Shown here one piece after another: positions 18,054 to 32,325 of a stretch of DNA of 32,325 nt. Origin of the DNA: Acidobacteriota bacterium (GTDB taxonomy: Bacteria > Acidobacteriota > Terriglobia > Bryobacterales > Bryobacteraceae). Within the stretch, counting starts at the first letter, position 1, and each line of letters starts with the position of its first letter. The notes beneath the pieces are model-generated. The model had not been told where the DNA came from. It made no database searches and saw only the letters and a list, made by a program, of their open reading frames with translations. The DNA is taken from the NCBI GenBank assembly GCA_016178155.1, contig JACOTZ010000464.1:1-32325 (forward strand), read 5' to 3'. The translations under genes were made by a program, and so were the position numbers.

Positions 18054-18182
18054 TAGCCGAAGTTCGTCACCGACAGGATTTCGAACCGCTTGCTTACGCG
18101 CGCGGCTCAGTAAGTGCCGTCAAATCAGCGGAAGCCTTCTGAGCCACGACCGTCAGGGAGTGGTGGTGACGAACCTCGGTTA
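18054..18182 (+). repeat. 129-bp MITE-like element with terminal inverted repeats, copy 1
   Basis: The ends are 18-bp inverted repeats: TAGCCGAAGTTCGTCACC on the left and, read from the other side, TAACCGAGGTTCGTCACC on the right (two mismatches). The element starts and ends at TA, as for IS630/Tc1-type targets. It matches the reverse complement of 31370-31498 over its full length with about four differences. It has no transposase, so it would depend on one elsewhere. One frame of it spells LA[Y/D]ARGSV, a peptide I recall as recurrent in acidobacterial annotations. Confidence 0.8.
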
Positions 18183-30325: not shown

Positions 30326-31372
30326 ATGAGGATCGGACTCATCGCCGCGCTCGCCGTGGCAGCGCTCGCGGCCGCGGACCGCCGCATTACCACCATCGCC
30401 GGAAACGGAACTCCGGGCTACTCGGAGAGCCAGGTCAACAACCCCTACGGCCTGGTCGTCGGACCCGATGGCGCCCTCTACCTCTGCGAGGTCAACAACC
30501 ACGTCATTCGCCGGCTTGACCTCAAGACGAAGAAGCTGACCACCGTCGCCGGCACCGGCGAAAAAGGCTATGCGGGCGACGGCGGCCCCGCCGTCAAAGC
30601 CCAGTTGAACGAGCCGTACGAGATCCGCTTCGACCGCGCCGGGAACATGTACTTCGTCGAGATGCGCAATAACGTCATCCGCAAGGTGGACAGGAAGGGC
30701 ATGATCTCGACGCTCGCCGGCAATGGCCAGCCAGGATTCGCGGGCGACGGCGGCCCGGCCGCCAAGGCGCAGTTCCGGCAGCCGCACAGCATCGCCTTCG
30801 ACAAGAACGGCGATATGCTTATCTGCGACATCGGCAACCACCGTATCCGCCGCATCCATATGAAGAGCGGCGTGATCGATACCTACGCCGGCACCGGTGA
30901 GCGCCTGCCGACGCCCGAGGGCGCGCCCATCGCGGGTACGCCGCTCAATGGTCCACGCGCCATCGCGGTCGCGGCCGACGGCGCCCTGTACCTCGCGCTG
31001 CGCGAGGGCAACGCCGTGTACAAGCTCGATCCGGCGAAGAACCGGATCACGCACATCGCCGGCACCGGCGAGAAGGGATATGAGGGCGACGGTGGTCCCG
31101 CGGTGAAGGCGAAGCTCTCGGGACCCAAAGGCATCTCGCTTTCGCCCGACGGCGGCGCCTACATCGCCGATACCGAGAGCCACACCATCCGCCGTATCGA
31201 CCTGAAGAGCGGCGTCATCACCACGGTTGCCGGCACGGGCGAGCGCGGCGACGGTCCCGACGGCGACCCGCTGAAGTGCAGGATGTCGCGCCCGCACGGG
31301 ATCTTCGTCGACAAGAACGGCGTCATCTACATCGGCGACAGTGAGTCCCATCGCATCCGGGTGCTGCGCTAG
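30326..31372 (+). CDS. Exported NHL-repeat beta-propeller protein
   Basis: A 348-residue protein with signal peptide (RIGLIAALAVAALAAADRRI) and about six NHL repeats of ~55 residues. Examples are NNPYGLVVGPDGALYLCEVN, QPHSIAFDKNGDMLICDIGN and GPKGISLSPDGGAYIADTES. Recurrent linkers read AGTGEKGYAGDGGPAVKAQL. These repeats form a beta-propeller used for protein or carbohydrate binding; the family is abundant in Acidobacteria. Its TAG stop (31370-31372) is part of the left end of a 129-bp repeat element, so the element borders the gene exactly at its stop. Confidence 0.93.
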   Translation: MRIGLIAALAVAALAAADRRITTIAGNGTPGYSESQVNNPYGLVVGPDGALYLCEVNNHVIRRLDLKTKKLTTVAGTGEKGYAGDGGPAVKAQLNEPYEIRFDRAGNMYFVEMRNNVIRKVDRKGMISTLAGNGQPGFAGDGGPAAKAQFRQPHSIAFDKNGDMLICDIGNHRIRRIHMKSGVIDTYAGTGERLPTPEGAPIAGTPLNGPRAIAVAADGALYLALREGNAVYKLDPAKNRITHIAGTGEKGYEGDGGPAVKAKLSGPKGISLSPDGGAYIADTESHTIRRIDLKSGVITTVAGTGERGDGPDGDPLKCRMSRPHGIFVDKNGVIYIGDSESHRIRVLR

Positions 31373-31498
31373 CCGAGGTTTGTCACCACCACTCCCTGAC
31401 GGTCGTGGCTCAGAACGCTTCCGCTGATTTGACGGCACTTACTGAGCCGCGCGCGTCAGCAAGCGGTTCGAAATCCTGTCGGTGACGAACTTCGGCTA
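31370..31498 (-). repeat. 129-bp MITE-like element, copy 2
   Basis: Same element as at 18054-18182 in opposite direction, about four differences in 129 bp. The ends are TAGCCGAGGTTTGTCACC on the left and, read from the right, TAGCCGAAGTTCGTCACC. The left TAG is the stop of the NHL gene and the right TAG (CTA on plus, 31496-31498) is the stop of the convergent membrane protein. One minus-strand frame reads PLADARGSVSAVKSAEAF. Confidence 0.85.
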
Positions 31499-32325
31499 GC
31501 CGCGATCGCGCGCAACTCCGGCCATGCCGCGGCGGGGAAGCGCCTGCGAGAGAACTTCGTTGCCGTCCAGCAGCACTCGAACGGTTCGAGCCCGTGCGGC
31601 CTCGGGAAGGAACAGATCGATGTGCAGCGGCGCAGGCGTCCGCGGCGGCTTCAGCAGAATGACGGCGCGGTCCGCCATCCAACGCCAGCGGCCGTCTTCG
31701 AGCTCGTGAACTCCGCCGGCGATCTGCTCGGCGGCTTCGGGAACGCTCATCGGAAGATACGACAGCCCGGGCGGGCGTGCAACCACAACTTCCGCGCGCA
31801 CGCGATCGATCGGGCCGGCCGCAAGGTCAAAAGGCCGCAGCCCGTGCGAGGCGGTCGAATAGCCTGACTTGCTGCCGAGCGCGATCAGCCGGAAGGGGAG
31901 CGGCGAAGTGATCTCGCGGGCCGCGAACAGCGTCAGCCGCCCACCGCCGGTGGTGAGCGGGATCGGGTAAGCCAGCTCGCTCGAGACCACCATCTCCCCG
32001 GGCGCGACCGCCTGGGCGCGCGCCGGCGGCAGCGCGCCGTCGGCCTCCATGTAGTAGCGCAGACCCAGCTCGCTGTTGATCCAGACCCGCTTTGTCCGGA
32101 CCTCGGCGGCGAGGCTTCGCGCGAACTGCCGGTAGCCGTCCCAGTGATGGTAGTTCACGATCGCCAGGCATAGGCTGATCGCCGCTTGCGCGGCGGCGGC
32201 CGGAAAGACGAGCCGCTTCTCCCGGGCGGCGAGCAGCGCGACCGGCGCGGCGATCGGCAGCAGGTAGCGCGCCGAGCCGGCGAAGAAGAGCACGAGCGCC
32301 GCGGCGAAGAAGACCAGCACCCAGG
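31496..32325 (-). CDS. Membrane protein, C-terminal part (GT39/ArnT-like suspected), cut by window edge
   Basis: At least 274 residues; the 5' end lies beyond the right edge. The first visible part has two or three membrane helices (VFFAAALVLFFAGSARYLLP, then LVFPAAAAQAAISLCLAIVN), followed by a large non-membrane C-terminal domain: RVWINSELGLRYYMEADGAL, GEMVVSSELAYPIPLTTGGG and VRVLLDGNEVLSQALP. This layout fits the end of a multi-pass glycosyltransferase family 39 protein, which moves sugars from lipid carriers, but the catalytic N-terminus is not in view. Its TAG stop lies in the end of the 129-bp element. Confidence 0.65.
   Translation of the reverse strand, partial: WVLVFFAAALVLFFAGSARYLLPIAAPVALLAAREKRLVFPAAAAQAAISLCLAIVNYHHWDGYRQFARSLAAEVRTKRVWINSELGLRYYMEADGALPPARAQAVAPGEMVVSSELAYPIPLTTGGGRLTLFAAREITSPLPFRLIALGSKSGYSTASHGLRPFDLAAGPIDRVRAEVVVARPPGLSYLPMSVPEAAEQIAGGVHELEDGRWRWMADRAVILLKPPRTPAPLHIDLFLPEAARARTVRVLLDGNEVLSQALPRRGMAGVARDRG

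Follow-up and report, generated by a model that had tools for sequence, protein, structure and literature searches.

A MITE with IS1634-type ends in the probable CTAG overlap of two convergent acidobacterial genes

Near the end of the window (the whole 32,325-nt stretch of DNA analysed here), two convergent genes are separated by a palindromic element that appears to supply the stop codons of both. The question raised by this locus is how a single element could come to hold the ends of two reading frames, and whether the stop codons belong to it at all.

The gene pair and the element between its stop codons

The host genome is a 5.6-Mb draft of 477 contigs, estimated at 87% complete. On the plus strand, an NHL-repeat gene (30326..31372, ScyF/teneurin-NHL-like), assigned by profile matches and orthologs, ends with a TAG stop at 31370-31372. 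Facing it on the minus strand is a gene apparently encoding a membrane protein (31496..32325), which is cut by the contig end, has its TAG stop at complement(31496-31498) and gave zero matches in Pfam and NCBIfam searches. The interval 31370-31498 starts with TAG, ends with CTA and has inverted ends of 20 nt that are 90% complementary. An earlier note on this sequence had described these TAG-starting inverted ends, the two stops and a gap with no spare base, all of which were confirmed, the positions between the stops (31373-31495) being entirely element. The 129-bp element that it proposed was correctly located, but its size needs correction, as the element proper (CCGAGG...CTTCGG) spans 123 bp and the outer TAG and CTA are part of the duplication that flanks it.

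RNA folding of the element gave z = -7.2 relative to shuffles and the 62-bp core was matched 103 times in the genome at ≤3 mismatches, so the element is not a chance palindrome. Most of these 103 places were retrieved with their flanks and aligned by their ends, yielding 81 complete copies with a common sequence running from CCGA to TCGG, which is 123 bp long in 67 copies. The copy at 31373..31495 (plus strand) is one base off the genome consensus, and a second copy lies within the window on the minus strand (18057..18179) with a CTAA duplication. The left terminal inverted repeat, CCGAGGTTTGTCACC (31373..31387, plus strand), matches the ends of IS1634-type insertion sequences and its counterpart on the right (CCGAAGTTCGTCACC read inward) occupies 31481..31495 on the minus strand. 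Between them are a left REP unit (31388..31411, minus strand), forming a hairpin with a TGAC loop, and a right REP unit (31444..31467, plus strand), forming a hairpin with a GTCA loop, which together make up an inverted pair, or REPIN.

The element is short, lacks a transposase gene, has 15-bp terminal inverted repeats, is flanked by duplications of constant length, occurs as dispersed near-identical copies and shares its ends with autonomous elements. It is thus a non-coding MITE present in about 100 copies in a Bryobacterales-like genome, the placement in Bryobacterales (Acidobacteriota) being indicated by matches to the NHL protein; an exact 48-bp pattern had no occurrence in a collection of named genomes. 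The description of the element as mobile-like was therefore apt, given these copies and their 4-bp target duplications, and the remark that no named class has its features no longer holds, as the element can be classed as a MITE whose ends are of the IS1634 type. An Rfam search of the element returned no meaningful match, with one hit at E = 9.5, far under the gathering score.

Origin of the two stop codons

Identical 4-bp flanks were found at 59 of the 81 complete copies, against a mean of 13.5 identical pairs when right ends were permuted (5000 trials, maximum 25), while the fifth outside base was identical in just 22 of 81. The flanking tetramers were CTAA (17), CTAG (15), TTAG (12), TTAA (3) and a few others, describing a YTAR target, with GTAG and CTGG also among the matching pairs; no wider target motif was significant in 47 clean sites. 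At the present locus the duplicated target is CTAG, the left copy of which (31369..31372) holds the NHL stop and the right copy (31496..31499) the TAG stop of the minus-strand gene. The two TAGs are direct repeats of the target and lie outside the element proper. Their resemblance to inverted TAG ends comes from the palindromic nature of CTAG.

When the flanks are joined (...CTGCG CTAG CCGCG...), the NHL TAG and the opposing CTA fall within one tetramer, giving a reconstructed gene overlap of four bases. We infer from this that the pre-insertion site consisted of convergent genes overlapping on CTAG and that the empty site would read ...GCGCTAGCCGC... Orthologs of the NHL gene are present in 33 of the 61 genomes searched (host included), the best relatives compared being approximately 70% identical in the NHL protein, for which reason the exact empty site is a reconstruction. 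Among 95 ortholog loci with a readable stop (drawn from two partly overlapping sets, so that some genomes are perhaps counted twice), nine have the NHL protein ending at the same residue with TAG, the element being absent. The convergent neighbour is kept in five syntenic loci, where stops abut or genes overlap: TAA is followed directly by CTA in L166 (gap 0), and the overlap is 14 bp in L252, L254 and L256 and 175 bp in L188. The agreement of these element-free loci lends support to the proposed 4-bp overlap, and their arrangement indicates that no spacer of this kind was ancestral and gives no sign of stop replacement.

It had been proposed in the earlier note that an element bearing TAG at both ends inserted and replaced the original stops of both genes, and the ends of this copy can indeed be read as TAG...CTA. 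However, CTAA, TTAG, TTAA, GTAG and CTGG pairs occupy the same place in other copies, and the nine orthologs share the end residue and the TAG without the element, which is one of the two observations that the note had named as counting against its reading. With the TAGs being target-site copies, replacement of the stops is hardly credible.

The locus is instead very probably the product of a MITE with IS1634-type ends entering the CTAG overlap of two convergent genes and duplicating it, with both stops kept. A non-autonomous element of this kind would be directed to YTAR targets, here the CTAG within the 4-bp overlap, and insertion would duplicate this tetramer, as is shown statistically across many copies. 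One CTAG copy would then retain the NHL stop and the other the opposing stop, leaving both proteins unchanged, as the reconstructed site and the orthologs indicate. Each gene retained its own stop because the insertion copies CTAG, its own reverse complement. Both scenarios put forward previously, replacement of the stops and selection for TAG-ended elements as two-way gene ends, are unnecessary, the ordinary target preference of the element being sufficient.

One other copy, L002 (G000:C161), is followed at approximately 1626-1656 by CTAG and about 24 bp identical to the right flank of the 31373-31495 copy (CCGCGATCGCGCGCAACTCCGGCC), after which the sequences diverge. This perhaps reflects transposition via a cryptic end, AACTCCGG, with the 31373-31495 copy as donor.

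Copies at stop codons and between convergent genes

The position of copies relative to genes was assessed with a home-made gene caller trained on the host genome, for which 65 reconstructed sites were testable, using 188 other YTAR sites from the same flanks as the control. Of the 65 copies, 18 lay on one stop, one on two stops, seven in coding sequence and 39 elsewhere; the corresponding control numbers were 16, 1, 87 and 84. The absence of any preference for stop codons, which the earlier note would have taken as evidence against it, was not observed, as pre-existing stops were found at 19 of 65 copies and at 17 of 188 control sites (p = 0.0002). When non-coding sites alone are considered the excess is mild (19/58 against 17/101, p = 0.03), becoming 18/59 against 12/115 (p = 0.001) with a stricter gene cut-off. 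Convergent contexts were likewise over-represented among non-coding sites (19/58 copies, 12/101 controls, p = 0.003), divergent gaps were depleted (3/58 and 26/101, p = 0.001) and 13 of the 19 stop-codon copies sit between convergent genes, with most copies overall located in tandem intergenic gaps or elsewhere.

These distributions bear on the proposal that the hairpin has been kept by positive selection between convergent genes as a two-way 3' end device, either terminator or mRNA stabiliser. The convergent excess, the share of stop-codon copies that is convergent and the strong hairpin would fit such a role, but a scan for intrinsic terminators found no U-tract or T-run after the hairpin and no terminator match, the depletion of divergent gaps is explained by the loss of promoter-damaging insertions, and most copies are not in convergent positions. 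Retention as a two-way device is accordingly unlikely. The related claim that TAG-ended elements are selected as two-way gene ends fares no better, with the TAG outside the element and the copy at 31373-31495 being the only one of the 65 to lie on two stops. The hairpin may affect the 3' ends of both mRNAs.

The enrichment at stops might also be taken to mean that the transposase has a preference for stop codons as such, over and above YTAR, as both the mild and the stricter comparisons of non-coding sites would allow. Against this, the 47 clean sites show no significant consensus past YTAR, and the enrichment coincides in part with the bias toward convergent genes and depends on home-made gene calls, making a preference of this type quite improbable. 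Target choice together with selection against insertions in genes and promoters can account for the excess: a YTAR ending in a stop codon is a frequent and harmless target, while insertions in promoters and genes are presumably lost. The preference for stops needs neither TAG ends nor a special class of element.

With insertion at an ordinary YTAR target, the puzzling coincidence gives way to a simple rule: a stop-like target lets a transposon enter gene ends with the protein unchanged. It is conceivable, although we hold this as a tentative extension, that the YTAR target makes the family systematically stop-preserving, leaving gene ends at YTAA and YTAG intact and splitting CTAG overlaps with proteins unaltered, and so provides a route to new intergenic regions. 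If true, overlapping convergent genes would become spaced over time, with a structured 3' element between them. A search for transposons at shared stop codons found no earlier report in the literature library consulted.

Element ends, REPIN interior and comparison with known systems

IS1634-type elements of 2024-2026 bp in genomes G006, G020 and G029 and in the host (contig C427) have ends of the form CC[CGT]A[AG]GTTCGT (CC[CGT]A[AG]GTTCGTCAC) beside YTAR. Those of G006 and G020 are intact, with 605-aa transposase ORFs (L229 and L231). The host copy is bounded by ends of this kind, and its frameshifted transposase is the sole IS1634 transposase found in the 87% complete draft. The model NF033559 matched the end-bearing elements (G006, E = 7.9e-91; host fragment, 4.4e-59), and the right end of the MITE is identical to the ends of the G006 element over 14 bases. 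From the matching ends and YTAR flanks, we infer that the MITE was mobilised by an IS1634-type transposase. Direct repeats of 6 bp have been given for the IS1634-family members ISPfe2 and ISGka5 (PMC3281130, PMC8024623), whereas those of the MITE are 4 bp, and the four full-length IS copies had YTAR at both ends with an identical 4-bp pair in none of the four; for these reasons the ends are described as IS1634-type and the MITE is not called a member of IS1634.

At the other IS1634 copies, a de novo search for terminal inverted repeats yielded ends that were weak or unrelated. Another transposase, C18, one of two from a DDE_Tnp_1 scan, was rejected as it had no matching end pair. The IS1634-type elements L225 (G026) and L250 (G001) have related but distinct CCGAAGTTCCA ends and other flanks, which suggests several end types within the group carrying them.

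The interior of the MITE has a different distribution. In relatives, the sequence shared with the query is confined to about positions 19-98, or to half of this stretch, and comprises the inverted REP palindromes ACCRCTCCCTGACGGTCGYGGCTC and GAGCCGCGCGCGTCAGCAAGCGGT; the core was matched in whole or part in 23 of the 61 genomes searched (host included), in relatives without the MITE ends. At each of six stem positions 28-29 of 29 distinct units pair, with CG/GC/AT swaps, the search pattern itself leaning toward pairing. Matching REPs flank both sides of the RAYT-type genes L200, L209 and L220 and one side of the host RAYT L190, which is at a contig start. The inverted palindromes with conserved pairing and the RAYT genes flanked by the same REP are those of a REPIN, the 5' tag being (C)TGAG rather than the GTAG of the GTAG super-family. 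The host has 184 REP matches in all, some outside the MITE. Judging from these comparisons, the interior predates the MITE: the standalone REPINs of relatives and the host REPs outside the MITE therefore point to a REPIN that was enclosed in DDE-type ends and then spread, recently so, since the mean pairwise divergence among MITE copies is 2.1%.

About a dozen MITE copies (211-270 bp) carry in one REP loop a palindromic insert of 97-99 bp, GAAGGTGTGAAA...TTTCACACCTTC, which is itself a MITE with at least 34 copies in the host genome (those with GAAGGTGTGAAA ends include G000 loci L037, L056, L072 and L321-L347, among others). Flanks could be read for 28 distinct copies: a REP palindrome is recognisable around 24 of them, and REP halves adjoin the other four; a 3-bp TGA or TCA duplication was present in 24 of 28, the retrieval pattern itself having required TGA on both sides. 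Half of such an element (TTTTTCACACCTTC TGA GGGAGCGG) with a REP remnant is found at positions 121-150 of the window, near the contig start, and L350 (G000:C247:11081-11445) is a 365-bp version with approximately 265 bp extra inside, bounded by inverted repeats (CTGGATATCCCCTTGACTCAGC). This shows a REPIN, of the RAYT-linked class, placed inside a second type of transposon end, subsequently amplified to about 100 copies and entered in turn by a third element that targets REP loops.

Compared with IS1634-family insertion sequences, the MITE shares its ends (CCGAAGTTCGTCAC) with the intact elements of relatives, themselves beside YTAR, but it has no transposase gene and makes a 4-bp rather than a 6-bp duplication. 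Like REPINs and BIMEs with their RAYTs, the interior consists of inverted imperfect palindromes with compensatory changes, found family-wide and beside RAYT genes; it differs in that one lineage in the host genome appears to have acquired DDE-type ends on both sides and spread together with these, and in its 5' tag, GAG instead of GTAG. The 97-99-bp MITE enters REP palindromes as do IS1397, ISKpn1 and other REP-targeting insertion sequences (PMC1525189), but is non-autonomous, with no transposase found for it. In its length class (~100-200 bp), terminal inverted repeats, target duplication, copy number of about 100 and long hairpin fold, the 123-bp MITE is similar to RUP, Correia/NEMIS and ERIC (PMC2229807), whose termini are 5'-TA-3', whereas the element described here duplicates a 4-bp YTAR target and combines IS1634-type ends with a REPIN interior.
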